Source: Dermatophagoides farinae (Eukaryota; Arthropoda; Arachnida; Sarcoptiformes; Pyroglyphidae). Taken from it: a DNA stretch of 64,000 nucleotides. Positions 4,303 to 34,536 of this stretch are shown piece by piece. Where the stretch lies: NCBI RefSeq assembly GCF_024713945.1, contig NC_134677.1:620001-684000 (forward strand), in the 5' to 3' direction. Position 1 is the stretch's first letter; each line of letters opens with the position of its first letter. The position numbers were made by a program, and so were the translations under genes. The notes below the pieces were generated by a model. That model saw nothing but the letters and a program-made list of their open reading frames with translations, was not told the DNA's origin and searched no databases.

Positions 4303-7300
4303 ATCAATCCTGAGAGTTTTATGAATTCTTGGGACCTTGGTATATTGCTTGGCTTGCTTGATAATGTGACAAGTTACAAGATTGATGAGTATTTTTTCAT
4401 CATCATCATCACCATCAAGTCAATTTACCGAATTCATTCTTGTTCTCTCTACATTCGACATTTTTATTCATTCATTCTTATCCACAGCCAAAACAAAATA
4501 AAAATAACGAATGAAATTCGAATAAGATGATGATGATGATGACTTGTATCCACTTTTTATTTCTGGAACATGAAAAATTTCATCGATCGATCAATCGATC
4601 AATCAATCAATCAATCGATAATTTTGGTTGTCTTTTAAAAGAATTTTTTTTTTGTTTTCTTTCTTTGAAAATCAATTGTTGGTGATGACGATGATGATGA
4701 AAAATTCATTTTGTTGTTGTTGTTGTTGTTGTTTGGATAAATTCTGCCAAGATCAAGAAAAAAAAATTGGTTTTTTTTTCATCCATTCGGGTCGAGAATT
4801 AATTACCTTTTAGAGAGAAATTATTTAATTAACACCAGGACAAAAAAAAATATTTTCACACCTTAGAATTGGAAAAAAAACAACTACAATATGGACAAGC
4901 CATACATATCCTTGGTGTCCAGCAAAAAAAAAAAAATAAAATAAAGGGATCGTCCATTAACAGCTGATATTTCAGCTGTTTTTGGTATACCAATCAATTC
5001 TATAATAACCCAAGTGTCAAAATAGCGAACCATCATTTGTAATAATTAAATTTTCGAAACCATAAGTTATATATTATTATTATTATTACTACACACTAAT
5101 TTGATTTGATTTGACTTTGATTTGATTTGATTTGAATTCCGTATTGCCGGTTTTTTTTCCACATTATTAGATTATGTTTTCACACACACACACACACACG
5201 CGCGCGCACATCGAATAATGTTGTTGCTGCCTGTGAACAAACAATTTGTCTATCTGTTTTTTTTTTTCGTTCACGATTTTCATTTGTTCCGTTCTGTTTT
5301 TTTTTTGTGCGGTCTCGATGATAATAAAATGTTATATCATCACAAGAGGAAAAAAAACCCGACGAAAAAAACAACAACACAACACAACTGGTTGGCTGTC
5401 CAGCCCAAACGATTTAGATTATCGTCACGGGATTTTTTTTAAATTTTTTTTCTTTCTTAATATTCGTCATCATCATCATCATTCTGTCAATCAACTAATG
5501 ATATATATCGTCGTTGATTCTACGTCATCATCGTGGCGGTGGTGGACACAACATGACAGAATATCGATATTGTACACACACACACACAACGAAACAAAAT
5601 TCATGAACAAATTTTCAATCATCATCATCATTGATGATGATGATGAATATCGTGCACGGATTTTTTTTTTTTTATTTCATTCTCATATTTTTACCATCAC
5701 CATTGCTTCCTTACCTCATCCCTCCTTCCTCCAGCCCCCGACCGCCCCGCCATCCAGAAAAATCTTGACAAAACAATAATCTTTCAAGATGATGATGATG
5801 ATGGCTTTGATCATTTGTCCAGTTGTGTTTGTGTATGAATGTGTGTGGATAATAATGGCCAATATGAAATAAAAATTATTATTATGGTGAAATTGCAAGT
5901 TTTTCATCAGATTTTTTTTTGCAGTTTTCTTCTTGGTTGATGATTAGAAGGAAAGGCCGCATCGAATACGATGGATAACATGGATTTTTTTTTTTCGTTG
6001 ATGATGAATGTTTAAATCTCTCTCGCTCGCTCTCTATCGCGTTGCCGTAATAATGATATAGGAGATGACGATGATGATGAGATTTGTGTGCAAAAAGCCG
6101 TAGCAAATAAACATGTTTTCATCTGGCGTCCATTTTCCATCATTTTATCCTATCCTATTCGTATTCATCCGCTTCAAATCTTGTTTTTTTTTCTTGGTTG
6201 CCGCGTCTTTGTATTGGTCATCATCATCATCATCATAATGGACAACAACAACAATATTCGTATGATGATGATGAATGGCAATGATGATGTGGATGAACAA
6301 CGAATGAATGAATGAAATGTAATGAATGAATCAAACGAATATGGCCGAATGTAGCTAGATGATGAAAAAGAAGCAGATATGGTCAGATAAAGCAACAAAT
6401 GGATTGAAATGACGAGCTTTACTATTCTAATCTCTCCAAAAGATTTCAAGATTCATAACTAATAAATTGATCAAATTAATCGAATCAAATTAATTGGAAA
6501 ATTAAATAGTTTGTGTCCAGCAAATGAATTCATGATTATCTTGATGATGATTAAATCAAATCAAATTTTGGCGCCCAGATAATAATGAAAACTAATCTAA
6601 ATGTCGATTGTTTATAATGAATTTGATTAGATCCTTGATGATGATGATGATGATGATCAATCCATCTAATGGCGCTCGGACTTGGACACACACAGTAGTT
6701 TTCCATATACAAAAAAAATACTGATCATGATCATTATAAAAATGAATGATGATGATGAAAAATTCATTGCGTGCAAAATTTTTCATTGCAACATAAAAAA
6801 AAATTATTCAAAAATCATCATCATCATCATCATAATCATCATGATTGCCACCGCCACCACTATCACCATCATGATCATCATCAAATATTGAAATCATGAC
6901 TTGATTTTTAAACTTGAAAAATGATGAATTTTACTCTCTCTCTCTCTCTTCATCGCTTGTCACAAATTGAGACATTGTTTTTTTTTCTTTGATCATAATT
7001 GACCAACTGGTGAAAAAAAAAATTTACAAATTTTCAGCCAAACGAAAAAACAAAACAAAATTGATTTTCCGGATCATCATCATCATCATGGGATGATAAT
7101 TTGCCAATGATGATGATCACCATCACCATCATCATTGATCATAATCATCGTGATTGCAACAATACAAAAAAAAGGTGTTTGTTTTGTGTTGTGTGCATTG
7201 TGTGATTAGATCATCATCATCATCATCATCATCGTCATCATCGGGAAAAAAAACGGGTTCTCTAATTAAAATTAAACCACAATAAAGTCATCCGTCATCT

Positions 7301-8754
7301 TAAGACGACGACATAATCAAAATGATGATGATGATGATCATCATCATCAAGATCATAATCAAGATGTAAAAACCAAGAAAAGATTCGCCTAAAACACACA
7401 CATTTTCTTCGATAGAAGGACGAGAGAGAGAGAGAAAAAAATTCTAATTACAATTGACTTGAATCGATGACGATGATGATGATTATAATGATGATGTTCG
7501 CATTCGATTAGATTTGTGTGTGTGGTTTTTTTTTCTTTTTTTTTTTGCTCGAATAAATATTATACGAATCAAAAATGAAAAAAAAAATGAAAAATTCCTC
7601 CACCCCGCAACAATGGATGAGTAAGCCGAGAAAAAAGGTCCAGTGTACGATGTTTTGCTCTACTGGACAATAATGTGGAGAAAACAAAAATTTGTCTGTT
7701 TGTTTGTTTGTTTGGTTTGGTTTGGTTTGGTTTTGTGTTGTCCAAGATCTACACAGATCTTGAGATTGTGAAAGATGAAGATCATCATCATATGATCACA
7801 TGGATCAATAAAATGATTTTTCATCATCATCATCATCATCATTGTGTGTGATGGTCGATCATTTTTAAAAGTTTGATTCGGTTCTGGTTGGCCAGAAATA
7901 ATAAAAAAAAAACGAAATGTCAGGTGTACACTGGCTGGCTGACTGAAATTTGACTTTATTCATCTTCACCGAAAAAAAAACTATTAGAATGATTACTATC
8001 ATTACAATTTTTCGTTTTTTTTTTCGTTCAGATTTGAATGATGGATAAAAATTGTTTTTGGTGGTGGTGGTGGCGATGGTGGTTATTCGTCAAAATTGGC
8101 CATATGGATTCACGATATACACATGATGATCGGATGAATTTTTTTTTTTTTCGTTCTTTTCCATATTCGTGGCAATGGTGAGTGAAAAATTTTCATTGTG
8201 GTGGCGTCAGTCGTCGTCATCGCCATCGTCATCGTCCAAGACGATGATGATGATGATGATGGCCACACGAAAACAACATGTAATTTTATTGTGATGCAAA
8301 TTTTTAATTTATTTAAAAAAAAATTCCGAAAAAATAAAGTTTTGTCGTGTGTGTATGTTGAATTGAGATTCTTAGTTTCGGTTTCGAGGTTTTTCATGGG
8401 CATTTTTTTTCTGGCTGGCTGAATGGGATAAATTTTTTTTTTTGTTACACACGACTATCATCATCACATTTTTTTTTCGTATTTATTGATTGAATAAAAA
8501 TCATGATTATTGATCATCATCGTCAACATCATAGATAGATAGATCGATCGATCGATTGATCATCCATAAGAAGGATTTTTTCTTTTTGTCTGATCAAGAT
8601 TGATTCACACAGCACAACATTGATTGAATGTGAATAAATAAATTGAAAAAAAGAGGTTTTTTTTATCTAGAAGAGAGAGAGAGAGAGAGAGACTTGATGT
8701 TGTTGTTGTTGTTGTCCATTTTCACGAACATTTTCTATTCTCACACACGCACAG

Positions 8755-8780
8755 ACACACACACACACACACACACACAC
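8755..8780. repeat. (AC)13 microsatellite
   Basis: An uninterrupted AC run in the gene-poor region, preceded by a GTT run near 8700 and followed by a CAA run near 8815-8840. Confidence 0.95.
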
Positions 8781-9471
8781 ATCAGTTTGTAAAAGTTTTT
8801 CCACAATTCTTTCAACAACAACAACAACAACAACAACAAAAATTAAATTATATCCAACCAGAGAAAAACATTGTGTGTGTGTGATTGCATTTTTCCGGAT
8901 TCTCTATAATTCCGATGTTGAACCGGTTTCAGTGTGTGTGTGTGTGTGCAAAGAATTTCTTCTACATATTGATTGAATTATTTCGTAATCAATATATATA
9001 TATATTCAATTATTGTTTTCAAAAATTTCTACAATTTCAATGTGACAAAAAAAAATTTTCTTTTTTTTTCTAATCACAAACAACCAATCAAACAAACCGG
9101 TGATGGTGTTTGAGAAAATTTTTCCATTGAAAAAGTACCGTTTCATTTTGTTTTGTTTCGTTTCGTTTGGTTATGTTCAACAGAAATTTTTCTCTCTCTG
9201 TGTGTGTGTGTGTGTGTGTTTTTTTTTTCTGTAATGTAAACACATCTATTACACACAAGGTGTAATATATGGAGCCAGTGAGAGGCAGAAAGATATATCA
9301 CCGATACACTTTAGGGACTTCGACTTGTCATCATCATCATCATCATCATCATCCGTACAAACATTGTTGTTGAACTGTGTACACTGCACTACACTACACT
9401 ACACTACTATGGCTTTTGTCTGTGTGTGTGTATGTCTTATTATTTGCTTTGGGCGACAATCTATATACGGT

Positions 9472-9503
<32 letters not shown>

Positions 9504-12500
9504 CCGTATATTATGTTTGTCGAAAAAAAAGAAAGAAAAATAAATAAACTCCTGGAGCGAATTTCGATGATCATGATGATCATGGTGAAGACTACCGAAT
9601 TCGGTGTGTTGGTTGTTTTTTTCTCTCTTCATGTTCATGTCAAAAAAGATATTTATATCTATCGAATCGATTGGATAGATAGGCAAGATACAAACAGACA
9701 CACACACACACACACACAAGTTGTCTATAATTTGGATTATACTAATTTTTTATTTTACACATTCAAGTACACCCACAAAACGATAATTTTGTTTGATCGA
9801 TAGCCATTGATTGATTGACTATTTTTTTTCCATGATACATGTGATCATCATCATTGCATTTAATGTGATAAAATAACTGTACATTTACCATCATCATCAT
9901 CATCACACACAGATTGTCAACATGAAAAAATTTTTTCAAACTTTTTTTCTTTACTGTTCTATTTGACAGACCACACATATGAATGGAGAAAATGACAAAA
10001 TGGAATTGAAAAAAAAATTCGCCAAACTTGAATTTGTTTGCCATACGTATGGCGTGTGTGTGTGTGTGTGTGTATGAAGGATGTTTACCTTGGTGTAGAA
10101 GTTTGAATGAACGAAAAAAGATTATTTCTTGTTTCGTGTATTTTTTTTTTTTTTTGATCATCATCAAAGCCAAATAATGACGATGATGATGATGATGAGC
10201 ACTCAAGCAAATCTTGATTACCATTGTTGTTGTTGTTGTTGTTGTTGTTGCTGAATTGCATATACCGCACATACATTTTACCAGAATAAATGAATTTGAA
10301 GATGATGACGATGATCAGCAGTAGTTTGTTCGAGTTTTTCTTCTCTATATAAATTTTTCTCTCTTGAATTTTAGTTTGTCGAATCGGTCTATCGTCACCT
10401 GGTTCAATGATTTCGATGATGATGATGATGAGTTGTTGTCATCATTATCATCATCATCATCATCGTCATTGAATGGCACGCGTATGAATCGAATCGAATC
10501 GAATGTGGAATTTGAATTTTTTCTGCATTTTCGTTGTTGTTTGTTGTTTTCCTACCGAATGAATGAATGAATGAGTTGACAAACGCAATTTATAGCCAGG
10601 AAAAAAAATTTTTTTTTCTCCCATTTTCGTTTCGCTATTTACTGCAAAATCGATGAATTTTATTTTTCCATCCATTCATCCATTCAATCGACCAAATATA
10701 AAACAAAAAAAAAACGAAAAAAAAATTCATATCCTGGTCGCTTTGCTATTTAGAAATATGGCGCGCGAAAAAAAATGAATTCATTTCGCGCCATACCTAG
10801 GCAACAAAGGAGTGGTTGCTTGCTTGCTTGCTTTCGTCTTTTTTTCTCAATTTCGTTACCTTGAAACAATTTAATGGGCAAGCCTTTTTGTTCATTTGAT
10901 TTTTTTTGTTTGATGCACCTATGGACCTTTACAACAACACATTTTTTTCCGCCGCTCTAAAATCGTGACCATAATTAAGAACTGCAATGTGAGAGAGAGA
11001 GAGAGAATGAGAGTCTAATTAATTACACAATTAACACACACTATAAATTGAGTGAAAAAAAATGAACGAGAAAAAATATTGATTATGAAACAAAACAAAA
11101 AACAAAACACAAACAGAAGAATAAATCAAAAAAATCTATCATTCCTTCATTTCATTTGCACACTTCATACAAATATTATGACATTTGACCTTCGCTATTA
11201 AACGTCTATGTTTGTCTGTTTGTTTGTTATTTGTTATTCATGAGAATTGAATGGCGTGATGCCACGGTACCACCACACGGTGTTCATTATTATATCGATC
11301 GGGATTAGTCAGTATATATATATCGATAATGATGATTCTACAGAATCAAAAAACATCTATCCATAGTTGTCGTAGTGGTTGGGCAGCAGCAGCAGCAAAA
11401 AAAAATTATCATTTTTTTTTTTTTGGACAAATTTCAATCTAAAACCAGCTATTATCGTCATAATCATCATCATCATCATTAGTAGAATGATGAATATTGT
11501 GATGAAGAAAACACGTTTCACTTATTCTTACCCTCCCCCCCCCAAAAAAAAAATGGCCAATCAAAGAGCAGTAGTAATAGGAAAAAAATGGTTAATCGGA
11601 AATTCTGTGATTCTACATTCTCATTTTAAATATAATTGTAATATACTTCATTTATGATGAAGAAGAAGAAAAAAATAAAAATCATAATCATCATTTGAAT
11701 GGAAAAAAATTTTTCTTTTCTTTTCTTTGCAATTTTTTTTTATTGTTGAATCAAATGAAAAAAAAGAAAAAAAAACAGGTCGCCGCCCGAACATTAATGA
11801 GTTTGATTATGTCTGTGTGTGTGTTGTGGATGGATGGATGGATGGTTGGATAGTCTGAATAGATATTTTTGGATTCTCTCTTTCTGTTTATTCGTTCTTC
11901 GTGGTGGTGGTGGTGGTGGTGCCGGTGATGATGGTTAGATGATGATCATCGATGATGATTATCAACCAACCGACCAACAACAAACGAAAAAATCGTTTTA
12001 TTTTGAACACACACACACATACACACAATTGATCGTTGATGATCATCATCGATGATGATGATGATTATTCATTGATGGCCAATGTCCGATTGTCATGATT
12101 ATCATCATCATCATCATCATCATCACTATATGGATTTGATTTTAAATCAAAAAAAAAAAAAATTCGACAAATCGAAATCGACCAATCATCATCATCATCA
12201 TCATCAATCGATTGAAATGAATATTTTATGCAAGCAAAAATTTTCTTCTTGTTGTTGTTGATGATGATGATGATGAATATATAGAAATGGATAATTTTAA
12301 AAATGTTTAGATTTGATTCAAGATGAATTTCATTCATTCATTCATTCATTCATTTCATTTACCCATTATATAATGGTCACCATTCAAATTCAAATTGATA
12401 TGAATGTTGATTGATCAGTCATCAATCACCATTTTGACGATGATAATGATCATTTTCATCATTTCATTTCATTTGAATTCGATTATTCCGGCCATTAAAA

Positions 12501-14786
12501 TGTGCCAAAAAAAAAATAAAAATATTTGGCACTGGAGAAAAAAATTTTTTTTTTCTTGAAAATGCTCAAAAACAAAACGAACGTGATGAGATGACCAAAT
12601 GTTTCTTTTTTTTTCAATCACTGATCAACATTTTTTGTCAACGATATGAAACGGGGAAAAAAACACTGAAAAAAAAATAAATTCAATTTGTGAATGATTG
12701 AATTTTATATTTTTTTCAGTGTTGTTGTTGTTGTTGTTGTTCTTGTTCACACTACTAGATTATCAATTGTTAGGTGGTAATCAATATTCTATCCGTGAAA
12801 CTTGTGTGTATCAAGTTTGTCGAATTTGTCGAGTGTGTGTGTGTGTATGTTACGTACGTTTTCATCATCCATTCAATCAGGCTAATTGAATCTTTGTCGT
12901 CGTTGTCGTTGTCATTGTCGTTGTTGTTGTTGTTGTTGTTGTCTCGGAGCCAATAACCATATGTCTAATAGCTTCATAGTGTGTGTGTTGAAAGCAAATT
13001 TTTATCCAAGTGCAAGTTGTTAGTTGTTAGTTGAGTGAAGAGAAAAAAAACTAATTATAAAATTGGTAGCTTCAAAAAAAAAAAAAATTTGGAACAAATA
13101 CAAGAAAAATTTGTTCGTTCAACAGCCAAACAGCCAAACAAACAGACAAATTGATTAGTAGATAGATAGATGATGATAATGTGACAAACGAATGAATGAA
13201 TAAACAGAAGAAAAAAAATGATGTAAATTTTTGAATATTTGCCAAAATGAAATTTTTTTTTTATTGTACCAACAAACAGAAAAAACAAACCACCACCAGA
13301 ATCAGCAATAAATATAGATGAATGAACTTGAAATTTAGAATGTGTCTAATTGATTGTCTACTACGACGACGACGACGACAACGTTGGTTGTCTAAACGAG
13401 AGATAGCAAGTCAATTAGCGGATGAATTTTTGTTGTTATTATTGTAATTTATTGTAATCATGATCGATTATAATCACCGGGGCGACGATAGTCTCTCTCT
13501 CTCTCTCTTTCACTGGTCATATAAGAAATTTGACCCTTTGGATCTCTTTTTTTTTTGGTCAACCGATGGTTATCTGTCTCGCTTGTGTGTGTGTGTCCAT
13601 TTACTGTTGTCGTATTGTATATTGTATTGAATTACATAATTTCCAAATCGAACAGAACAGAAAAAAAATGTTTTTGTAACATTTTGTAATCAAAAAAAAA
13701 AAAAAAAAAAAAACTAAATCAAATCAAAAACTTTCAACCAAAATGAATGGCACACACACACACATCATCATCATCATTCATCAATAAATTTTCTCATAAA
13801 AAAAAGTTGAATTTTCTGACAAGCATCCTCATCATCACCATCATCAGCTGAAAGCTGAAATTTTGATTGCTGATGTCGTTCGTTTATTCAACAAATCTTC
13901 GGTTATTGTTTTATATTGATATGAAATGAAATTTTCATTTCATTTTTTTTTTTTTTCATTAATTTAAATTCCATAGCTGGAAAACAAAACAAAACAAAAC
14001 GAAACGAAACGAAAAAAAATCCAACTTGATTTGAACTCGATGAAATTTTTTTTTCTTTTTTTCTGTTTTGTTTTGTTTTTGATGTGTCTCATTATTGTTC
14101 TGAATTCCATTGCTGATTTGATGATGATGATTGCGATGAATCAAAAAATCAATCAGACAAAAATTTTTTCTCTTCCATTTTTTTTTCGCACTCATTATTG
14201 CCTACAAACAAACAAATTCAATTGATTTTGATAAGACGATGACGACGACGACGACGACGACGATGAAATTCCTCAATTCCGTATGTTCATTTTCCCACAT
14301 GATGTGTTGCTGTTGCTGTTGCTGTTTTTTTTTCATTTCATATCCATGCAGGTGATTTATTAATTTTTTTTTTGTTCCTCATCATCATCATCATCATTTC
14401 CACAATTTTCATTATCAAACCGAACAACAACAACGGCGAATGAAAATTAGATCGATTTGAATTGCAGCGAGAAGACAACCAGAAACGAAATAAAACTAAA
14501 AAAAAAAAATCTTAGATAACAGCTGATTGCCTGGTTGACTGTGTGTATAGCCTGTCATCACATTCAATGATTGATTATTGATAAATGGCCAATTTTTTTC
14601 TTTTCGTCCACATAACATCAAGTCCAAGTGAAATTCACAAGCGGATGAACAGAAAAAAAATTGAAATGAAAATTTCAATTTTTTTTTCTTCTTCTCATCA
14701 TCATCATCATCAAAAACGGAATAAATGAGAAATAATTATCACATTATCATTTGCCACTTAATAACATCCAAAAATTGATCAATAGA

Positions 14787-14813
14787 CATTCTCATTGTGG
14801 TACAATGAGAATG
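14787..14813. repeat. Perfect 12-bp stem, 3-base loop hairpin
   Basis: The left arm CATTCTCATTGT (14787-14798) is the exact reverse complement of ACAATGAGAATG (14802-14813), separated by GGT. It is not built from the local simple repeats. No gene or terminator role is evident. Confidence 0.9.
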
Positions 14814-15271
14814 AGACAATGGAAAGAAAAAGAAGAAAAAAATTGATTTTCATTTGTTTTCCATCCATTTTTTTTTTGGCTTTTTGGGCCCCTGAACAAA
14901 AGAATAATTGGGTGTAAAATCACGAAAAAGGAAACAAAAAAATGATGAAATTTCAATTTAAAATTTCCGCCATTTTTTTTCTTCATTCATTTACATATTT
15001 GAATGTCATCATCATTATCATCATCGGCAAAACAATTATATAATGGTAATAATCATAATTTTTACAAATGATAAACGGAAATGGAGACTTGTTCAAGATC
15101 ATTTTTTTTTTTGTATTTTGAATGAGAAAAATTATTTTTGTTTTTTTTCGTTTCATTTCTTTTGTTCGTCTTTTTCTTTTTCTTCCATCATAATCATCAT
15201 CGATGATGATGATAATGATGATGATAGAACAATTGAAAATTGATGATGATTTTTATTACCGTTCAACTACT

Positions 15272-15280
15272 GCCATCTAT
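15272..15280 (+). promoter_or_regulatory. GCCATCTAT promoter-like word upstream of NBAS
   Basis: This 9-mer lies about 154 bases upstream of the NBAS start codon. The same word occurs at 32049-32057 (upstream of BRPF), 58576-58584 and 63413-63421 (Rab7 5-prime region). It contains GCCAT, the core recognised by YY1/Pho proteins. A regulatory role is inferred. Confidence 0.4.
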
Positions 15281-15433
15281 TGAGTTTTAATTAAAAAAAT
15301 TTTTACAGACAATTTTATCATTAGTGTGCCCATATGGGTGTAAATAGTGATTTGTTTTTGTTTTTTTTTTTTAAATATACTCGTGTCAATCTCGGTTGAA
15401 TTTTGTGATAATTCATTTGACCAAGAAAAAAAA

Positions 15434-18180
15434 ATGGATCCAACAAGATCGACCAATATTTTTTCCCACGCGTTTGGTCAGATTTATTTTGCCTTCATGT
15501 TTTACATTAGTTATTTTATTCATCTATTAAAATTACCATTCATTCGTCGTGATAATGATGGACGTTTTATTGATCCAATACGGCCACCAAAAGCAATTAT
15601 TGATGGATTGATGGAAAATTTCGACGATAGCCGATTAATCAATGCAAATGAAACCGTTGAGGATACTTATATTCGTATGATTAAATCAAAACAATATGAA
15701 ACAGCAATGAGATTGGCAAAAAAATTTGATCTCGAAATTGATTTAATCTATAAAAATATGTGGCAACATAATGAGAAAAGTATTCATTTGATTGATGAAT
15801 GTCTAGCTAAAATTAATGATCAAATGTGGATCATAAATCAATGTATTGATTGTATACCGAGACAATTGCCCGTACAACGGTATCTATTACAATTTGGTAT
15901 CAATTTAATTGCCCACCATCAACAACAACAACGACAACAACAATCTGAAGATTCGAATGTTTTCAATGAAATACGAACCAAATTATCGATTCATTTAAAT
16001 CGATTAGATTTATATGAAAAAATATTGAAATCAAAATTTGGTAACGATAACGATGATTTCGTTGATAATTTTGATCAAGAATTTTTTCGCCAATTTCGCC
16101 AAAAAAATCCATTTCAATTGGCAATCGAACATGCACATCAAGCTGATATTGAAACATTGTCTGTATTATTTGCTCATGAACACCGAAAATTGGCATCACA
16201 TTTTTTTGTCATTCTTTCAAATCTACCAGAAACATTACCACCATCAAATTATAAAGATCTGATTGAATTGGCTATTTCAACATTATCCAATGCTACAGAT
16301 GATGATTTTTTATCCATCACAAACATCGACGATGATGATGATTATGAAAATAAATTCTATGCAAATAATAGTGATCAATTAAAATTTAAAAGTGATAAAC
16401 CTGTTGATGAAAAATATCTAACCGAATGGTTTGAATATCGTGCCCAGATTATCCTCGATCTTACCATGTTGATTGATTATTCATTAGAACTGTTACGTAT
16501 TGGTATCGATGGTCAACTTTCACGATTGGAAGATTTATATTCTGAACTTGATCTTTATTCATTGTTTGTTTACGAGAATTTCACCCTGACAATAACGTTT
16601 GAAAAATTTCGTAATTTATCCATCGATGAAAAAATGAATTTATTATTCAATGGCGAGAAAAATGACAATATTCTATTCATTAGAAATTTATTTGAAAAAT
16701 TTTTCGAAAAAATCACCGTCTATTGTCAACGTAAACAATTGGTGAATGTGAGTAGAAAAGAATTACTTCGGAATTTTTTTCTCAACATTTCCCGGATGGA
16801 TTTTGGACAATGTTTGAAAATTTTTGAAATCTATACCATAGTCAATCGAACCACAGAAGAAATACGTCATTTGAAAATTATTGATGATCCATGTGATCTT
16901 ATTGAATTGGCATTAGAATGTATTCGATCATATGATCGTGTTAGTGATCTTGATTTGGCATTCAAATTAATGGAATGTCTACCGGAACGTGATCAAGCAC
17001 ACTTGTTGAATGTTGAACAAAATAATGATGATGATGATCAATGGTTAGATCGATTCAATAGAATCAATGATGAAGCCGATGAAATTGCTTTTCATTTATC
17101 AATGGTGGAATTTTTATGTGAAAATAATACACCCATTACGGTTAAAGAATTGATTCAAATTTCGGCTACAACGACCACGACGACGGAAAAACAATTATCG
17201 TTTGTGAAAAAAGTGTTGAATAATTTTTGTAAACAACGAACCACTATCGATTCATTGGAATGGAAACAATTTTTTTTGAATCTTAAAGATTTAATTAAAA
17301 AATATCTCACATCTATTAGTGATGAAGAATTGATTGAAACCACTGTCCGTTGTTTATTGTGGTCAAATAATGAATATTTCATTCAAATGGCATTCAATCA
17401 TATCGATATGATGGAATCCATCCGTGGAAACAGGAGTAAAAAATTAAATACAGAAAAAGGAATTCAAATTCTACGACAGGTTGCTAAAGATTATCTGAAA
17501 TATGCTGGTTCACAACCCGATGATGTGATGATCAAATATGCTCGAATGTGTTTGGATTTCATTCACACCATTGATCCAAATGATTTTGATACAAATGATG
17601 AATTGAATTTTATTCAAGCATTACAATTGTTGAATCAAGAATTCCCGGTAAAGAATGGCTACCCATACGAATCAAAAATATTGGCCAACAAGATTTATTG
17701 GAAATGATTTTATCATCGGCTCGAAATGCACATACAAAAATTGATGAAATTTTAAAAATTATTCATCTTCTCAATTTGTTCAAATCATCCGATGATAATG
17801 ATGACGAGGAACAAGAAGCTCGATTATTGAACATAATCGGTGAAAAGGCAATTGAAAATGGTGATTATAAAACAGCAAATGATTTATCAATACAAATTAT
17901 GGATCGTAATCTTGGACATGGAAAATCTGGTTGGAAATTATGTTATCAAATTTGTTGCATGATGAATAAAGAATTGGAATTTGAATCATTATTGACCATT
18001 GATCAACGATTACGGATATTATCGTTTGTACTGGCACATTGTCCCGATACTGATGTCAATATGCATTATGATTTATTGAATCAATTGAAAAATCTTAAAC
18101 AGCTACATGTTAATTATTTGATTGAACCAAAAATTTACATCAATTTTCATAATGGTCAATCAACAACATTGGTACAATAA
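15434..18180 (+). CDS. NBAS: NBAS-like Sec39-domain protein, short form, with frame break
   Basis: NBAS (Sec39 in yeast) is a subunit of the NRZ/Dsl1 tethering complex that captures Golgi-to-ER vesicles at the ER. Family recognition comes from Sec39 segments such as QYETAMRLAKKFDLEIDLIY, DQEFFRQFRQKN and ILSNLPETLPPSNYKDL. The ATG at 15434 has good context (AAAATGG) and an in-frame stop lies upstream at 15341. The product is about 913 residues against more than 2300 in vertebrate NBAS. The N-terminal beta-propeller and everything after the Sec39 domain are absent. Residues of about 10-30 are strongly hydrophobic and could be a membrane segment. The frame breaks near 17690: protein similarity continues in the next frame (LLEMILSSARNAHTKIDEIL) up to the stop at 18178-18180. 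No GT-AG intron restores the frame, so a one-base indel is likeliest. The stop lies 5 bases from the convergent RNASEH2B stop. Confidence 0.9.
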
Positions 18181-18185: not shown

Positions 18186-21100
18186 TCAACAATGTTTCTT
18201 GAAATAGCTTGAAATATCTTTGATACCAGATTTGTCCACTTTATTCAACATTCGTTGTGTATGTGTTAATTTTGGTTTCTTTTCCAATGATGACGATTTA
18301 ATATATGAACGTGCGTGTGTGATAAATGAAGAAAAGAAAAAAAAAATTTTCTTTAAAACAATTTACAGCAACCACATTTGCAATTATTACCTTGTTTTTA
18401 TCATTCATTTTTCGTTGCTCATGTTGTTTCGATTTTTTCTTTGCCGGTGATGAATCAAGTTTTCGCTTATTTTTTTTTGGAATTTAAAAAATTTAAAAAA
18501 ATAAAAATTTTTTTCTCTCTAAAAAAACACCAAACCTTTTTATCATTATTTTCGTCCTTGATATCTTCGTCTTGTTGTTGTTGTTGCTGCTGCTGTTGCT
18601 GATGTTTAATGTCGGGGATTCTAAACGAATGAAAAATGAATGCAACAAATCAGCCGAACATGATATCATCATGTAAAATAATTATTACCCAAGTATAGTA
18701 CGTAATTCACGTTCATAATCATCGCCAATGTAATCCGATAAAATCTGCAAAGCCATCGAATTGTATTGAGCTGTGAATGTAAAAATGAATGGAAAAAAAC
18801 AGAAAAGTAAAAAAAAAATTCAATTGATAACGTTATCAGCAAAACAAAAAATAAAAAACAAGTTTAACAGATGCTGATTTTTTCTCCATAAAAAAACCTT
18901 CAATGTCGAATCTTTAAAATCGTTCATTCATTCATTCATTCACTCAATCACTGGACGCAAAAAAAAATCCAAATGGATCAATTTTCACTTGAATGTCTTC
19001 GCCATGGAATACCGATTGATCCATTGCCTGAATATGATGGTAAACGTAATGTGAATATTGTACATGCACCAAATCGTTTACATAATCTAAATAATTATCA
19101 TGATAAACAATTGGCCATTGATAATGCATTAAGATATTTTCCATGTCATTTACATTCATTGCTTTCCGTTGAATTCCGAAATGAATTGGATCAATATGGA
19201 CATATTTATATGTATCGATTCATTCCAAAATTCCCGATCCGAGCATATCCAATTGATTTATATCCGGCTAAATGCCAAGAAGCAGCTGCTATAATGTTGA
19301 TGATTATGAATAATCTAGATAATGATGTGGCCCAATTTCCACAGGAATTGGTCTGTTATGGTGGCAATGGTCAAGTTTTTTCCAATTGGTATGTCGTTTT
19401 TTTTGTTTTGATTAAAAGAAATTCAAATTAATCTTGTTTCTTAAAATTCAGGGCCCAGTTTTGGTTGACAATGAAATTTCTAAGCAGTTTGGAATGTAAT
19501 CAAACCATGGTACTAAGTTCTGGCCATCCATTGGGCGTGTTTCCCAGTTTATCATCAAGTGCACGATTACTTATTTCCAATGGAAATATGGTGGCTAATT
19601 ATTCTAGTAAAGAACTTTATAATCGTTATTTTGCTCTTGGTGTCACTATGTATGGACAAATGACAGCTGGAAGTTTTTGTTATATTGGACCACAAGGTAT
19701 TGTTCATGGTACAACGATTACAATTTTGAATGCAGCACGTAATCAATTGGGCACGGATCAACTTTCGGGAAAAGTATTTGTATCATCTGGTTTAGGTGGA
19801 ATGAGTGGTGCACAACCAAAAGCCGGTGTTATTGCTGGATGTATTAGTGTTATTGCCGAAGTTTCATTGGAAGCATTAATGAAACGTAAAAGACAAGGAT
19901 GGCTAATGGAAGTGGAAAACGATTTGAATAATTTGATCAAACGAATTGAAAAAGCAAGAAACGACAATGAAATTGTCAGTATTGGTTATCATGGAAATGT
20001 TGTTGATTTATGGGAAAAATTTGCTGATTATCATCGAAAAACGGGAAAATTATTGATTGAATTAGGTTCAGATCAAACATCATGTCATTGTCCATTTACC
20101 GGAGGATATTATCCAGCTGGTATTGGATATGAACAGGCGAAACAAATGCTTGAAAATGATTCCGAAGAATTCCGTAAATTATGCCAGAAAAGTCTTGTAC
20201 GTCAAGTGGCTGCTATCAATTATTTGGCTGAACAAGGAATGTATTTCTGGGATTATGGTAATGCATTTCTATTGGAAGCATATAGAGCAGGTGCTGATTT
20301 AAATCCAACCGAAACATCATATGGAATTAAATTCAAATATCCATCATATGTCCAGGATATTATGGGTGATGTCTTTTCACTAGGTTTCGGTCCATTTCGT
20401 TGGATTTGTACTTCAGGTAACGCTAAAGATCTTCAAATTAGCGACCGTATTGCATTGGATATAATGACAAAATTATCAATGGATCCTGATCTGGACAAAG
20501 AATCGAAAAGACATTATCAAGATAATATTAAATGGATTGAAAATGCTGATAAACATCAATTGGTGGTAGGATCACAGGCACGAATTTTGTATTCGAATCA
20601 TGATGGTAGAGTAGCGATTGCTCGAGCATTTAATCAAGCAATTCGTGATGGAAAAATTACACGGCCTATTGTCATTTCACGTGATCATCATGATGTTAGT
20701 GGAGCAGATAGTCCATATCGAGAAACATCGAACATTTATGATGGATCAGCATATACAGCTGATATGGCCATATTGACAGCCATGGGTAATGCAACACGTG
20801 GTGCAACATGGATTGCTTTACATAACGGTGGAGGAGTTGGTTTTGGTGAAGCACAAAATTGTGGTTTTGGTTTAGTATTGGATGGCCGATCAGAGACCGA
20901 AGAAAAAGCGGCCAACATTTTGTTTTGGGATGTAACAAACGGTGTAGCAAGACGTAGTTGGAGTGGAAATTCGAATGCATTGAAAACGATTGAAAAAATT
21001 CAAACAAAAAACACTAATATTCAAGTGGCAAAAAATCACTTACATTGATCAATGATGTCGGTTGACACCAAATTACTAGCGGCCACATAATTGTTGATTG

Positions 21101-21611
21101 TAAATCCTCCTGTAGTGTTCGATTTGAAACCATGTTTGGCTAATGATTTTTTAATTTGTTCAAATTTCAAACACAACCATTTCATTGTCCTTTCTCGGTT
21201 AAATCGTATGAAAAGTTCAGATTCGAATGATTTTACATCGGCTATACATTTCAATAGTTTATCATTAAAAATTTTATTAATCAAATCAATTGATGTCGAA
21301 TCTAAATTTTGATCGGCCATAATGTCCATTAATGAACAATAATTGTTGGATGATTGTTGTTTGTCCATTGATCCAATGATTGGAATCATCAAGAATAAAG
21401 GATCAATCGGTGTGATAATATAAACGTTTCCATCTTGAATTAGACAATCATTCATAAACCATGAATGATAAGAATTTTTTCTCATATTAAGCTCATAAAA
21501 TTGTTCATTATCACAATAATAATCACATTCTATTTGATGATTTTTCGGATGTTTTAATCGTATACGATTCAATTCAATTGATGTTTTTGGTAAAATGAAA
21601 ATTTTCGACAT
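18186..21611 (-). CDS. RNASEH2B: Ribonuclease H2 subunit B
   Basis: Non-catalytic subunit of nuclear RNase H2, which removes ribonucleotides and RNA:DNA hybrids from DNA. I read five exons on the minus strand: 21611-21044, 18770-18689, 18620-18536, a short lysine-rich exon near 18445-18370 (boundaries uncertain), and 18278-18186. Exon 1 carries the family core: NSYHSWFMNDC, ITPIDPLFLMIP and the RFNRERTMKWLCLKFEQ helix. Exon 2 gives MALQILSDYIGDDYERELRTI, exon 3 adds a poly-Gln tract, and the last exon gives the conserved tail LNKVDKSGIKDISSYFKK. Exon phases agree across the clear junctions. Intron 1 is about 2.27 kb, far larger than the other introns here, and contains the whole UROC1 gene on the opposite strand. 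An E2F-like site lies upstream in the promoter shared with DCAF1. Confidence 0.92.
18973..21048 (+). CDS. UROC1: Urocanate hydratase (urocanase)
   Basis: Cytosolic NAD-dependent enzyme of histidine breakdown, converting urocanate plus water to 4-imidazolone-5-propionate. Two exons, 18973-19388 and 19452-21048, join in phase at the tryptophan codon of GQVFSNWAQF and give 670 residues, the usual animal length. Diagnostic segments are YGGNGQVFSNW, VTMYGQMTAGSFCYIGPQG, SGLGGMSGAQPKA (NAD binding), LGSDQTSCHCPFTGGYYP (region of the catalytic cysteine), ISRDHHDVSGADSPYRETSN and LHNGGGVGFGEAQNCGFG. The entire coding region sits in intron 1 of RNASEH2B, antisense to it. Its last five bases overlap RNASEH2B exon 1, so any 3-prime UTR must run antisense through that exon. 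No further histidine-pathway gene is visible nearby. Confidence 0.97.
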
Positions 21612-21998
21612 TTTTTTTTCTTTGGCCCGTGATCAGATTTGTTTACATTCACGAAAAATTTTTTTTTTTTTTTTTGGCGCGCTCCAAATCAACATGTTCA
21701 TAAATGACGTTTTCAGTGGCATAGTTTTCATGAATGGCTTTGAGAGAGAAAAAAAAAAAAAAAAAATTTTCTCGAACAATTTCCATGTGTCCACAATAGA
21801 TCCACAATTCGTTTGCAATTCTCTGTAATTTTTCGTTAGTTTATTGAAATTTTAACAAAATATACAAAAATGTTCAACTAAATTTCACGCTTGATTTCAT
21901 TTGTTTAATTAAACAGAAACTTTTTTTCATAAACAACAATTCACCAAATCTTATATCATCTTTCATATATAAATAGTGTAGTAAAAATAGAAAGAAAA
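21612..21998. promoter_or_regulatory. Bidirectional promoter region, RNASEH2B / DCAF1
   Basis: This 387-base gap separates the divergent start codons of RNASEH2B (minus) and DCAF1 (plus). It holds a CpG-bearing TTTGGCGCGC at 21673-21682, which fits the E2F consensus TTTSSCGC, plus A/T homopolymers. No TATA box was convincing. Promoter function is inferred from position. Confidence 0.6.
21673..21682 (+). promoter_or_regulatory. E2F-like site TTTGGCGCGC
   Basis: The site matches the E2F/DP consensus TTTSSCGC and lies about 62 bases upstream of the RNASEH2B start codon. Replication and repair genes are classic E2F targets, so the placement makes functional sense. Binding is not shown by sequence. 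Confidence 0.5.
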
Positions 21999-24900
21999 AT
22001 GTTGGAAACCACCGAAACTATGACGCAATATCTTGAACAATGGGCTCAAGATGATTCAATCGACAATGTCATTGAACAATTGTCCAAGTAAATAAATGTT
22101 TTGGATTTAAAAATTGTGAATTTTAATTGTTTTTTCATATGTAGAATATGCGAATTATTGGAAAAAGAAACAGAAATCTATCTTAAAATGGATCCCGATC
22201 CATTGGATGATAGACATCCAAGTCGTACGAAACCAACATGTAGTTTGGGACCATTATTGAAATATCTATTTAAAAATGATAATTTTATGGATAAAGTAAG
22301 ATTCATTTTTTTCATGGTTTTTGTTTTAAAACAAATTTCATTTCAGCTTGTCACTTCATATTTGTTGAATCGAGATAATCGTGATTTACAAATTGTTGCT
22401 TGCCGGTTAACCATCGATATTCTACCCGGTCTTGAGACATCAGTTGTTTTCAACATGGATTCTGTATGTGTATTTTGTTTATAATTTGAAGATAGAAAAA
22501 AAATGTTTTATCATCATTTTTTTTATAGACTGGATTAATTGATCGACTTTTCATATGGGCACGAGATGAAGATGAACCATTGCAATCTTATGCTACAGGT
22601 CTTTTGGCTGCAGCCATTGAACAAGCAGATATCGGTGTATATTGTAAATCGGAAAATGCAGAATTGATTCCAATAATGTTGAAAAAACTTAAAACATTGA
22701 TGGAAGAAAGAAAGAAATCTAATGAAAATGTCAACACAATTAGTAATGATTGTCGTCTTTTATCGCCAAATCATCATCATAATCATCTTGAACCAGCCAC
22801 CAAAAGACGTCGAATTTCAAGTCCATTAAATGATTGTTCCAATAGTAGTTGGGCTGAAATGGAAACCTATGTGATTGGTTCATCAAAAGTATATCCATTA
22901 ACTAATGAAATAAGTCAACGTTTCATTTTTCAATATCTTTCTTCCATTGGTGGTTATCAAGAATTTTTGAGCAATGTTTACGAACATAATGCACTTTCAT
23001 TGATATTGGAAAATATTGATCTTGATACAAATCCAGATGTACGGCTTGCTTTCGAATCATTAAAGGTAATGCATTTTTTTTACGAAAGAATTTTGCCACT
23101 AATTTCCTATTTTGTTTTCCAGTATTTATCATCATTAATATGTCATAAAAAATTTGCCCTTGAATTTGTCAATAATGATGGTATTCAAGCTCTGTTGAAA
23201 GTTTATAAACAATCATTAGCTGCTTGTGGTGTTTCCATCTGTCTTAGTAACATTGGATATCATGAGGATGTTATGGAAAAGGTAAATTTGTTTATGAAAT
23301 TAAAATTGAAATTTCATTTTCATTTGTTTTTGAATTTTTTAGATCTGTTCACTGCCATATGAGATCCGTTATGAACTTGTTTCCTATTCATTATATCTGA
23401 TTGAAAGATCACATGATTCAAGTCGTACAAATTCGATGGTTTTTCTAAGTTTAGCATTCTCGTATCAAGAAATTGTTGAACTTTTTGATAAACAAGATGG
23501 TTTACGGAAAAATTATCAATGAAGTATGTATTGTGTATATATGTTATTGTTTTTCCCAAATAATTTTTTTTTATTCTAGATTTCAATGATTGATCTATTC
23601 TCGAAAGATATTACATATTCTGATGAAGAAATATTCACTAAACGTCAATATGCCAAACATATTTGTGTGGCCTTGAAACGTTATTTTGAAACACATTTAA
23701 TACTAAAAGCACAATCATTGATACAAACATGTTTCAAACAAAATATCAACAATGAAAATTATCAGAATTATTCACGATTAATGAATATAAATTTTCCAGC
23801 AAAAAAACCAATCAATTATGATTATGATTTAATCATGGAATATGTTGATGCCATGTTACATCTAATATCATTACGTTGTCAATGGGAACCGGTGGATAAA
23901 TTGATCAAATACGGTGGTGCTAAATTATTGATGCAATACATTAGTATGTCGTATGATTGTAATTTTACTGGAAAGTAAGTCTTTTTTTTATTGATTAATT
24001 ACAATTCTAATTGTTTTGTTTATTGAATAGATCTGATGCTGTTCGTAGTGCTCTCGATGTTCTTGTCGTATGTACGGTGATGCCTAAATTTCAATTGAAT
24101 CTTACCGAATCAATTCCATTCGATGATGATCATCCTATTGTTAGTATGAGAATAATTTTATCGGCAGCTTCCGGTGAACTTATCAATGATCCAGAATGTC
24201 AACGTTCAGCATTGAATATAATTATTAATTGTGTTTGTGGTCCTATGAGTCGTATGATGACAGATTTGACCATGTCGAAAACATCAATGGGTAATGCAAG
24301 CAAGAAAAAATTAATACGTTATGGTGAAGATGTTCTTAATAAACTTTGGAATTGTGTTCGTTTCAATAATGGTATCATGTTGTTGATTACATTACTTATG
24401 ACAAAAACACCGATCACCGATGCTGATTCGATTCGTAAATTGAGTTGTAAAGCATTGTGTGGATTAGCACGAAGCGAAAATGTACGTCAAGTCATTTGTA
24501 AATTACCATTGTTCACTAATGGACAGATTCAAAGTATGTTGTTTTGGAAATTAACAAAAAAAAATTTTTTTATCATCCTTAATTGTTTTTTTATTACAAT
24601 TTCAGCCTTAATGAAAGAACCAATTCTACAAGACAAACGTGCTGAACATTTAAAATTTTGCAAATTTTGTATTGAATTGATTGAAAGAATCACTGGTACA
24701 CCGGTTACGAATACATTGGAAACATCCATTGGAAATCTTAATAAAGCCGAAGTGATTACCCAAACAAGAATTGTTTACAATGAAAAAGAGCTTTTGAAAT
24801 TGATTCATAATCACTTGATTGCCAAAGGTTTAAGTAAAACGGCACAAATATTGTCTAATGAAGCAGATTTATCCGATTCGGCCATCAATAATCAAATAAA

Positions 24901-27066
24901 AAATACATTGAAATTTTTGACACCAACAAAAACATTTACACCTAGAGTGGTTTGTTTGATTTTTTTTAAATTTATTCCATCTGATGATCATTTTTTTCTG
25001 TTTTCTAGTCACGACAAATATCGGCAGTTACATCAACATCAGCATCGACAATGAATTCATCACCAACTTCTATAAAACAGTCTTCAGATGATATACTTGA
25101 AACATCAACCAATACCGGTATACCAATTAGAATTAATCGTACGAATAGAAATCGATTAAACAACAGTAATCAAGTTGTTCATCGACGAAATTCTCTAAAT
25201 TCGCCAATTAAAAAGGAAAAAATGACCATTCAACCACAATTACAGCAAACACAACCTCAACAACAACAACAGTCATTATCACAACAATCAAATACAATAT
25301 CATTAGATTCAATTGTCATCGAATATCTTCGTAAACAACATGCATTATGTAAGAATCCAGTGTTGACATGTCCACCATTTGATCTGTTCAAACCACATCG
25401 TTGTCCTGAACCACGTGAACGTAATGTTGCTCCATTCAATATTGCTGCACGTTTGATTGGTCGACAATATTATCCACCATATGGTGGTTGTTATGGATCA
25501 AAAATGAATCGTAAATACATTTATAGTCGTTTTCGTTCATGTCGTTATATTCGTTGTATAGAACCAGCGGTATTTTTAGATTGTGCTTTCGCTGTAAGTA
25601 GATTTGTCTGTTTTTTTTGAAACTGAACTCATCATGATGATTTATCCATATCCATATACACACACATACATAGCACAATTCTGATTTGATTTATGCCGGA
25701 AACGACAATGGCGATTTACATGTGTTCAATTATAATGGTACTATTGAGAATACTTACGGATGTTATGAAACACCTATAACTCATGTCGAACCTTCACTGG
25801 TAAGTTTCTTTTGGTTTGATTTATTGGATAATGTAATTGATATTTTGCCTCAAAATAGGATAATAGATTAATATTAACCACTACCTTATGGGAACAACAA
25901 AACTCTATACTATGGTCGATTAACGAAAATAATTTTGATGAAAAGTAAGTGAATTTTTTTTTTGATTATTGAATTCTTAATTATTTTGATGATCAATTGA
26001 TTTGAATACAGAATGTCATTTCCTAATGATACTCATGTAGAGTTTGGTAAATCATCACAGGACAAAGTTTTGGGAACACATCATTATGCAGCACATGTAA
26101 GTGTTTTGATATTTTTCATATGAAAGAAACAATATTCTAACAACAACAACAATAGTTATATGATTTGAATAGTTCACAATTGGTACGAACATTTGAAGAT
26201 GATAATTATTCCAACAAATATAATCAAAATATTGGCACATTTCATCCGGATGATTATCTTATACTGAATGATGGTGTTCTCTGGGATGTACGTAAAGAAT
26301 CACCTGTACATAAATTTGATAAATTCAACGATTCAATCAATGGTGTATTTCATCCAAGTGGACAGGAAATTATCTCTAGTTCAGAGATTGTAAGTATAGA
26401 AAATTTATTTGTTTTATCCTCTTAGTTTTATTATTTTGTTTTGTTTCGTTTAAAAAAAAGTGGGATATAAAAACATTCAAATTACTCAAAACGGTAACGG
26501 CATTATCGGATAGTCATGTTCGATTTAGTAAACGTGGTGATGTTATATTCGCTTTGTATGATGAAGATGAAGATAAACATTTTCATGAAATATCACATCA
26601 ATCATCATTTCGAACATTCGATGGTTACGATTATTCACCGATTGCTACAATCGATGTGAAACGTTCAATAAATTCATTGGCAATAGATTCAAAGGATCGT
26701 ATGATTGCATTAATTGAAAATATTAATGAAACATACTTTTCCGATAGTGTTATTAGATTATATGAAATTGGCCGTAAACGTGATGAAGATGATGAAGAAA
26801 GAACCGATGATGAAGATGAAGATGATGATGATGCTAGCGATGATGAAGATAGCGATGATGATGATGACGACGATGATGATGATAATGATAATGATTTGGA
26901 TGAAGAAGATTCCTGTAGTGATTCTGATGATACTTTATTCCATTCTGGTAGTTATCGTAGTGGCTATGGTTCAAGCGATTATGATACAACAACCAGTGAT
27001 GGATTAAACAATAATTTCGATGACGATGAAGATGAAGATGGCGTTTTCTATCAACTTTCAATGTGA
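21999..27066 (+). CDS. DCAF1: DCAF1 (VprBP/Mahjong), CRL4 substrate receptor
   Basis: Substrate receptor of the CUL4-DDB1 ubiquitin ligase, also linked to cell competition in flies. I read 15 exons: 21999-22087, 22145-22295, 22347-22463, 22529-23065, 23123-23281, 23343-23523, 23580-23974, 24031-24533, 24606-24946, 25009-25593, 25674-25799, 25859-25944, 26012-26096, 26156-26389 and 26461-27066. This gives about 1397 residues. All junctions are GT-AG and phases agree except at exon 6, which carries one extra A in the A5 run just before its end (near 23517-23521). Landmarks are DPDPLDDRHPSR, an armadillo-like N-terminal half, a LisH motif at about residues 765-800 (ELLKLIHNHLIAKGLSKTAQ), a WD40 half containing LNDGVLWDVRKES and HKFDKFN, and an acidic Asp/Glu tail from about residue 1300. 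It shares a promoter with RNASEH2B and converges on ING3. Confidence 0.96.
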
Positions 27067-32230: not shown

Positions 32231-34536
32231 ATGCCATCGACGAATATATCACTTTATCTGGAAAGTATACGTTCATCAAAAGCTCCATATTATTGTCCAT
32301 TTCAGAATTGTGGTAAAAGTTTTCGAAAAATTGATGCCATAAAAATGCATCTGAATAATATTGATCATGCAGAAATTTCACCAACATTTTCATCGACCGG
32401 TCGACGAATAATGCCAACAACAGCAGCAGCGATGAATACGAATGAAAAACGATCTACGACGACAAGAGATTTGAAAAATAATGACCATGAGAAAAGGATT
32501 CGAATGATTCAATTTAAATATAAATGTCAATTGGTAACAATACCAGCTGAAACTAATATGAAAATGAGATTTATATCGATGCCTAAAGTTGATAATGCTG
32601 ATACTAATAATTCGGCAGCAGTTGATGAGAAAAAGCCCAAGAATCGTAAATCGAAAAATAAATCAATAAGCAAAGCTTCGGCAACAACAACAACGACGAC
32701 GACGATAACAAATCTAAAACTACCTGAACCATCATATCGATTGTTGAATTCAGCTGATAATGATTATAAAGAGCCATCTGATTCATTGGCTGCTTATTAT
32801 CGATTTCTAGATGATTCTATCGAAGAAGAAGACCAAATGAAAGTCGAATATGATATGGATGAAGAGGACGCAGTTTGGTTAGAAATGATCAATAAAAAAC
32901 GACGTGAAGATCGTCTACTCGATGTAAATGTTGAAACATTTGAATTGATAATGGATCGATTTGAGAAGGAATCATTTTTTCAAAGTCAAAATTGTGGTGC
33001 CGATATTAGTTCAGCCATAGATGAGGATGCCGTCTGTTCAATATGTTTTGATGGTGAATGTCATAATTCGAATGCTATACTATTTTGTGATATGTGTAAC
33101 ATTGCTGTCCATCAAGAATGTTATGGTGTACCATATATACCGGAAGGTTTATGGCTATGTCGACGTTGTCTTCGGTCACCATCGACAGCTGTTGATTGTG
33201 TTCTATGCCCGAATAAAGGTGGTGCATTCAAACATACCGATGATAATCGTTGGGCACATGTTATATGTGCACTTTGGATTCCTGAAGTTGGATTCGCTAA
33301 TAACGTATTTCTTGAGCCAGTCGACAGTATTAATGCTATACCAGCGGCACGTTGGAAATTATTTTGTTCAATTTGTCATCAAAGAAATGTTGGTGCCTGT
33401 ATTCAATGTTATAAAAGTAATTGTTATGTTGCTTTTCATGTTACCTGTGCGGTACAAGCCGGTCTTTATATGAAAATCATTCCGGTCAATGAAATAACAC
33501 GTCAAGGAAATGCTGTTGTCACGATCAAAAAATTTGCCTATTGCCTTAATCATGCACCAGTTACAAAGAATGGCTGTTCCAATGGTCTTTATCTAAGCGG
33601 TGATGAAGATAGCCGTAGTGAACCAATCAATAACAAAAATAATAAAAAAAGTAAATCAAAAAATTCTCGTAAAATAATTAATGATAAACGTACGTCCACA
33701 TCTATAATATCGATTCCAACCATACCGAATGAACGTTTATCGAAAATATCTGAATTGGTTTCATTTCCACGAAGAAATGAATTTATGCAACGATTATATG
33801 CATATTGGAAATTGAAACGACAATCACGTAATGGAATGTCATTATTACGACGATTACAATATACAAATTCTACAATGAGAATCGATATGAATAAAGAAAA
33901 ATCATCAAAACGTGATTATATAAAAATGAAAAATCAATATAAAAAATTATTACAACTAAGACGTGATTTAGAACGTTCACGTTTATTATTGGAATTGGTA
34001 AGAAAACGTGAACGAATCAAATGGAAAATTATACGTGAAACACGATCATTTTATACTTATAAATTGATTCCATATAAAATGTTTCTAATTCATCTGTTGG
34101 ATAAAGTTGTCGAAAAAGATATGAATCAATTCTTCATTGAACCGGTCAATGTGGAAGAAGTTCCTGATTATCGTGATTTTATTAAAAATCCAATGGATTT
34201 GGGTACAATGCGTAAAAAAGTCGATGAAAATCAATATATATCGTTTGATCAATTTGAAAATGATTTAAATTTAATTATCGATAATTGTACATTCTATAAT
34301 GAAAAAGATACTATATGGCATAAAGCAGCTTTAAAATTGAAGATACATATCGATAATATTATCGAAGAGAATCGTAAATATTTATCCAACTATGATACGA
34401 ATACTGGATTACATTCATCGTCTGATAATCAAGAGGTGAGCCACATATATTAATTTAAATGAAATGAAATTTTAATTTTTTTTTTTGTATTTGATCTATT
34501 TACAAGATTTTGTTCGCTGGTGATGCTGAATCATGA
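32231..34536 (+). CDS. BRPF1: BRPF/peregrin-type bromodomain-PHD protein, short form
   Basis: Scaffold of the MOZ/MORF-type histone H3 acetyltransferase complex (fly Br140). One large exon, 32231-34435, is followed by a ten-codon last exon, 34507-34536, giving 744 residues. In order: an N-terminal C2H2 finger (YYCPFQNCGKSF, about residues 18-43), an EPC-like segment (VEYDMDEEDAVWLEMINKKR), PHD1 (AVCSICFDGECHNSNAILFC, from about 266), a zinc knuckle (VDCVLCPNKGGAFKHTDDNR), an extended PHD2, and a bromodomain at about residues 616-715 (EVPDYRDFIKNPMDLGTM). The C-terminal PWWP domain of animal BRPFs is missing. The ATG at 32231 starts the conserved N-terminus. The last codons, TCA TGA, are shared palindromically with MPHOSPH6 on the other strand. 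BRPF1 versus BRPF3 cannot be separated; a single Br140-like gene is likely. Confidence 0.95.

Follow-up and report, generated by a model that had tools for sequence, protein, structure and literature searches.

Two genes on opposite strands of one locus

Within a window of 64,000 nucleotides (the whole stretch of mite DNA described here), two genes of different function share one locus on opposite strands. The window spans 620001-684000 of contig C1, and the mite is very probably Dermatophagoides farinae: a group 2 allergen gene on C1 has a 120-aa exon that is one residue away from a solved Der f 2 sequence and further from Der p 2. The plus-strand gene, UROC1 (urocanate hydratase), lies at 18973-21048 and encodes 670 aa in two exons, as supported by Pfam, PDB and the gene finder. 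Exon 1 (18973-19388) opens with the ATG at 18973, exon 2 (19452-21048) closes with the TGA at 21046-21048, and the GT-AG intron between them measures 63 bp (19389-19451). Two further GT-AG choices would keep the frame open; the gene finder picked the 63-bp intron in every run. All three urocanase Pfam domains (N-terminal, Rossmann-like and C-terminal) were found far above cut-off, identifying the product as a urocanate hydratase, and the best PDB match was 6uek (E 7.5e-246, residues 8-650). UROC1 matched a single locus in the whole genome (62,435,336 bases in 22 contigs), and a search of viral contigs with exon 2 found no relative (two pattern matches, none confirmed). Gene families of the HAL type (histidine ammonia-lyase) and FTCD type (formiminotransferase) are also present in the genome, so histidine breakdown is probably intact and UROC1 probably has a pathway in which to work.

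The minus-strand gene, RNASEH2B (18186-21611), is predicted to encode about 300 aa in five coding exons on the basis of Pfam and PDB matches and a masked run of the gene finder. Exon 1 (21611-21044, 568 nt) starts with the ATG at 21611 and comprises 189 codons plus one nucleotide, covering the triple barrel and the start of the wHTH domain. Intron 1 (18771-21043) is a phase 1 intron of 2,273 bp running from GTAAGT to CACAG. Its donor, GTAAGT at 21043, follows AAT, and exon 2 begins at 18770 after TTTTTACATTCACAG. Exon 2 (18689-18770, SQYNSMALQILSDYIGDDYERELRTILG) extends the wHTH profile match, and exon 3 (18536-18620), called by the gene finder, carries a poly-Gln stretch. Exon 4 (18391-18465) is weakly defined, with a 3' end that fell at 18391 or 18367 depending on the run. 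The last exon (18186-18278) encodes KVDKSGIKDISSYF and closes with the TGA at 18188-18186, and its acceptor is weakly defined. UROC1 functions in histidine breakdown and RNASEH2B in the removal of ribonucleotides from DNA; the two functions are unrelated.

Homology evidence for RNASEH2B spans the junction between its first two exons. Pfam matches to Ydr279_N (8.7e-10) and RNase_H2-Ydr279 (1.8e-7) identify the triple barrel and wHTH of an RNase H2 subunit B, at 39.2 and 32.2 bits against cut-offs of 25.2. Exon 1 alone matches positions 1-98 of the wHTH profile with 27.8 bits, and addition of the peptide beginning at 18770 extends the match to positions 1-162 of 163 with 31-32 bits. The PDB match to RNase H2 subunit B (E 1.9e-13) likewise crosses the junction, with SDYI shared on its far side.

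RNase H2 subunit B has a C-terminal PCNA-binding tail (PIP box). We searched with a query of 120 residues from the exon 1/exon 2 junction onward, using the longer version of exon 4, and three RNase H2B chains came first (E 0.26-0.4), followed by an unrelated chain (0.59). The last-exon peptide KVDKSGIKDISSYF aligns with the C-terminus of human and mouse RNASEH2B in an alignment that includes KVDKSG and the final aromatic pair, and the last-exon peptide KPKLTHTQRMLNKVDKSGIKDISSYF aligns with the RNase H2 subunit B chain 8yjz_G. With E-values of this size and an unrelated chain close behind, the match is suggestive by motif and not significant by itself.

RNASEH2B exon 1 also matched only one locus in the genome. 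Its protein found no relative in a set of genome contigs that lacked relatives of this mite (nine pattern matches, none confirmed) or among viral contigs (four pattern matches, none confirmed). RNase HII matches were present at two loci (C4:2897186-2897713 and C11:606321-607097). No Pfam match to RNASEH2C was found in a genome search in which the controls likewise gave no signal.

Architecture of the nested pair

By coordinates and gene models, the UROC1 coding sequence (18973-21048, plus strand) falls inside the bounds of RNASEH2B (18186-21611, minus strand). A nested gene is described as one whose entire coding sequence lies within the bounds of another gene (PMC3786989), and UROC1 is thus an antisense nested gene. 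It does not belong to the purely intronic subtype, in which the coding sequence lies wholly in one host intron. Because its coding sequence runs five bases into RNASEH2B exon 1, where it ends with the stop codon, we file it as nested with slight exon overlap. The two coding sequences share 21044-21048 (5 bp, both strands), where the UROC1 stop codon and the two preceding bases face the five bases that close RNASEH2B exon 1. Within the final UROC1 codons, CAC TTA CAT TGA, the host donor GTAAGT appears as its reverse complement. With the UROC1 stop codon placed in host exon 1, any 3'UTR that UROC1 has must run antisense to coding bases of RNASEH2B. At the other end, 202 bp separate RNASEH2B exon 2 from the UROC1 ATG (18771-18972, plus strand), which is about all that remains of intron 1 once UROC1 is subtracted. 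The UROC1 5'UTR, and perhaps the promoter as well, would be expected in this gap.

An initial annotation, made from the sequence of this stretch, had proposed much of this arrangement. Its gene identities are supported by the Pfam and PDB matches for both genes, and its exon 1 end at 21044 with a GTAAGT donor, followed by an exon 2 resuming in phase at 18770, is borne out by coordinates and splice scores. It described an intron of roughly 2.27 kb containing the whole UROC1 coding region on the other strand; size, strand and nesting hold, and the word "whole" does not, the last five bases being exonic. The claimed 5-base coding overlap was recovered as well, with the correction that it takes in the UROC1 stop codon entirely, plus two bases of the final His codon, rather than part of the stop region. 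Provided that the donor at 21043 is used, the coordinates also bear out its statement that RNASEH2B coding sequence must lie opposite the UROC1 3'UTR.

Evidence that the host gene crosses the insert

Homology and the masked gene model both indicate that the host is one spliced gene across the insert; without masking, the model disagrees. The gene finder combined hexamer coding scores, splice and start matrices and an intron length model, parsed the strands separately, and was trained on 264 kb, made up of the window and the 200 kb on its right. With opposite-strand coding masked, it returned RNASEH2B as 21611-21044, 18770-18689, 18620-18536, 18465-18391 and 18278-18186. Another masked run, with parameters derived from 64 gene models lying outside the window, returned exons 1-3 and the last exon unchanged and put the end of exon 4 at 18367; since the window had contributed to the parameters by which those 64 models were initially predicted, this run is not fully independent. 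Masking of the UROC1 exons alone left exons 1 and 2 joined as before, and the 3' part of the model ran into the antisense of the NBAS-like gene downstream. In runs with no masking, exon 1 stopped at 21036 and exons were placed opposite the UROC1 gene. Because the finder agrees with the nested structure only after correction for this shadow coding, homology is the stronger evidence for nesting. The same behavior is a warning for annotation, as a gene finder without shadow correction breaks RNASEH2B at UROC1.

Splice signals at intron 1 are strong, with donor and acceptor scores of 6.84 and 5.76 against medians of 5.64 and 4.28 for predicted introns in the 264 kb. We counted 81 AG positions on the host strand from 21043 to 18170 and scored five of them against Pfam: 18770 and the alternatives 19161, 20422, 19834 and 18911. 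Two of the four alternatives open longer extensions and two open similar ones; none extended the wHTH match, all remaining at 27.3-27.8 bits over profile positions 1-98, as for exon 1 alone. With the donor at 21043 disabled, the best model ended exon 1 at 21077, scored 4.4 nats lower and still crossed UROC1 to 18770. An exon 1 ending there would, on this model, abolish the coding overlap yet keep the nesting.

Two other readings would do away with a host gene that spans UROC1. RNASEH2B might normally be short, through read-through to the stop at 21036 or polyadenylation in intron 1, with the exons at 18186-18770 being relics or parts of another transcript. The exon 1 frame does stay open for two codons past the donor, and a transcript ending in intron 1 would encode a truncated product of 191 aa; the unmasked gene finder prefers the read-through form, and the host strand of intron 1 carries ATTAAA among several weaker poly(A)-like hexamers. 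Against these points stand the strong donor and acceptor, the completion of the wHTH profile by exon 2 and the resemblance of the last exon to the RNASEH2B C-terminus (E 0.26-0.4). The same two matches contradict assignment of these exons to a different transcript, which the initial annotation had named as the outcome that would overturn its model. Host-strand AATAAA is also absent from intron 1, although a count of zero is not unusual for UROC1 codons (P 0.18). We regard a normally short RNASEH2B as very improbable. Misplacement of UROC1 into RNASEH2B during assembly is more improbable still, to the point that we give it almost no weight: the structure was read from one assembly only, but UROC1 matched nowhere else in the genome, and a random join is unlikely because a good host donor sits in the last UROC1 codons and both frames are intact through the junction. 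We are highly confident in the antisense nested gene pair, predicted from sequence and homology, and consider it an arrangement of an ordinary sort in a compact genome.

Genomic context

Introns in this part of the genome are short. After 12 of 91 models with a total score below 30 were dropped, the 79 kept models in the 264 kb contained 216 introns with a median of 70 bp; 187 were at most 100 bp, in agreement with the initial annotation that other introns here are mostly under 100 bases, while 19 exceeded 250 bp and four exceeded 1 kb. RNASEH2B intron 1 is the second longest predicted intron in the sample and, among the 30 longest, the only one that holds a predicted gene. Nested models thus number about one in 79, a rough figure drawn from 0.4% of the genome. 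Gene counts are approximate, the finder having split the gene at 21999-27066 in two in one run and joined it in a later one, and nested genes that have no coding sequence escape it. Published frequencies of nested genes are about 6% in Drosophila (including some that are non-coding), 2.1% in C. elegans and 0.5% in human, and nested genes are described as mostly intronic and frequently antisense (PMC3786989). As a genome arrangement, the nesting of UROC1 in RNASEH2B is not surprising.

Coding sequences overlapped in two pairs among the kept models: UROC1 and RNASEH2B share 5 bp, and two genes arranged tail to tail share 6 bp at 34531-34536. The second pair joins a plus-strand gene at 32231-34536, which by sequence reading begins with a zinc-finger-like motif, and a minus-strand gene at 34531-34947 that encodes M-phase phosphoprotein 6 (Pfam MPP6, 1.8e-23).

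RNASEH2B is closely flanked on both sides. Its stop (18186) lies 5 bp from that of a convergent plus-strand gene (15434-18180), which we take to be NBAS and for which Pfam gives only a KNTC1-type ARM domain. Because the stops are so near, each 3'UTR would overlap the coding sequence of its partner. The first sense AATAAA after the RNASEH2B stop, a candidate poly(A) signal at 18072-18077 (minus strand), is inside the NBAS-like coding sequence. The RNASEH2B mRNA could accordingly be covered by antisense mRNA at both ends. Among 20 convergent neighbor pairs in the 264 kb, three had gaps of at most 28 bp. On its other side RNASEH2B is arranged head to head with a plus-strand gene at 21999-27066, presumably DCAF1-like, across 387 bp (21612-21998) that may form a shared promoter region; the first 410 aa of this neighbor had no Pfam match.

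Elsewhere in the window, about 14.7 kb at 763-15433 contained no predicted coding gene and many short tandem repeats, and 47812-58775 held a single 18-aa model of negligible score. An EZH2-type gene occupies 36725-39080, with SET, Ezh2_MCSS and CXC domains above cut-off.

Poly(A) signals and codon usage

The first AATAAA after the UROC1 stop, at 21394-21399 on the plus strand, is a candidate poly(A) signal for UROC1. It lies antisense to the P-L-F codons of a DPLFL segment of RNASEH2B that is common to the mouse protein. Under synonymous shuffling, the chance of at least one antisense AATAAA in RNASEH2B exon 1 is 0.62, and an antisense copy occurs within the first 568 bp in 45 of the 92 exons that are 450 bp or longer. 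Because shuffled sequences yield such a hexamer 62% of the time, we do not count it as evidence. Hexamers following stop codons showed no strong enrichment, and the species' poly(A) signal was thus not learned from them.

Codon tuning was assessed with 1,000 synonymous shuffles of UROC1 and 40 of each other gene of at least 900 nt (60 genes including UROC1). Antisense AATAAA was observed zero times in UROC1 against 1.31 expected (P 0.18), and antisense AATAAA or ATTAAA once against 2.36 expected (P 0.24). Decoy acceptors numbered 12 against 9.35 expected and decoy donors two against 0.73, with 97% of shuffles having that many donors or fewer. The strongest decoy acceptor (4.60) scores below the true acceptor (5.76) and is not unusually low relative to the shuffles. 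In this synonymous-codon test, UROC1 codons gave no sign of tuning to protect host splicing or to avoid premature polyadenylation. Since decoy sites are if anything more numerous rather than fewer, host selection on UROC1 codons finds no support.

Proposed mechanism and possible regulation

We propose that RNASEH2B is transcribed leftwards through UROC1 and that removal of intron 1 would discard nearly all antisense UROC1 sequence, as sequence and homology suggest. For UROC1, transcription would run rightwards, probably starting between 18771 and 18972, and the mRNA 3' end would form in RNASEH2B exon 1 or past it. If both genes are expressed, as we infer, their primary transcripts would be complementary over all of UROC1, and their mature mRNAs only over the UROC1 3' end, a stretch of about 360-380 nt should the AATAAA at 21394 serve as the signal. 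Tolerance by splicing, rather than regulation of either gene, is the most likely reason that the arrangement persists.

Nested transcription may still have consequences. In human, a nested gene may provoke intron retention, exonization and cryptic polyadenylation in its host (PMC3192792), and expression divergence of Drosophila nested genes has been attributed to interference, as recounted in PMC8467205. Dicer products dominate the small RNAs of the house dust mite, and small-RNA coverage of mRNAs is greater at 3' ends, which the authors considered suggestive of cis-NAT siRNAs; the Dicer genes in that paper bear the prefix Dfa, and dust mites were given dsRNA there by feeding and by soaking (PMC5805368). 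The initial annotation suggested duplexes or interference at this locus, which the sequence itself does not demonstrate; these published data make the idea more plausible, and duplex-derived siRNAs would be a fair hypothesis here. Where the two genes are co-expressed, a measurable degree of transcriptional interference, or of Dicer siRNAs from the 3' overlap, is possible, if on balance doubtful.

The pair could instead be a regulatory cis-NAT pair, in which RNASEH2B exon 1 base-pairs with the UROC1 3'UTR and Dicer siRNAs made from the duplex tune UROC1, RNASEH2B or both. Any UROC1 3'UTR would overlap by geometry, and Dicer-dominated small RNAs that are richer at mRNA 3' ends (PMC5805368) fit such a role; the synonymous codons, however, show no unusual tuning, and an antisense AATAAA in exon 1 is what chance would give (P 0.62). 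Taken together, we judge regulation of this kind unlikely. A stronger form, in which siRNAs from the UROC1 3'UTR/RNASEH2B exon 1 overlap would couple histidine breakdown and RNase H2 levels in cis and would be kept by selection in related mites, appears distinctly improbable. Tolerance through splicing is the reading we prefer.

The interest of the locus lies mainly in the biology of this mite, which draws heavily on small RNAs processed from double-stranded RNA and has reportedly lost piRNAs. A locus in which an mRNA 3' end is forced to overlap a coding exon of a conserved gene offers a good test of siRNA output and of its importance.

Comparison with known nested genes

The kind of arrangement, an antisense nested gene with slight exon overlap, is already known, and the UROC1/RNASEH2B pair is a new case of it. 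A limited literature search on nested genes, mites and urocanase found no published mention of this pair in mites. Drosophila 2mit, in intron 11 of timeless2, is like UROC1 a two-exon protein-coding gene antisense in a host intron; it is described as intronic, whereas the UROC1 coding sequence enters a host exon by five bases, and conservation of 2mit/timeless2 across species is reported (PMC3786989). Drosophila Pcp lies on the complement strand of intron 1 of gart/ade3 and thus, like UROC1, is antisense in the first intron of an enzyme gene, although the genes are different ones and the passage on them states no coding overlap (PMC3160391). The tick papilin gene and its nested helicase provide another acarine case with exon overlap; there the genes share a strand and have exon regions of 102 and 86 bp in common (PMC3160391), whereas the mite genes lie on opposite strands and share five bases. 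Positionally overlapping genes of mosquitoes include opposite-strand pairs, as in the mite; they come from a survey (about 10% of predicted genes, PMC3689595), while the mite pair is a single case predicted from sequence. The small RNAs at house dust mite mRNA 3' ends (PMC5805368) resemble what we propose for UROC1, in that mRNA 3' ends come under antisense transcription. Unlike the 3' overlaps suggested there, the 3' end of UROC1 would meet the first coding exon of its partner.
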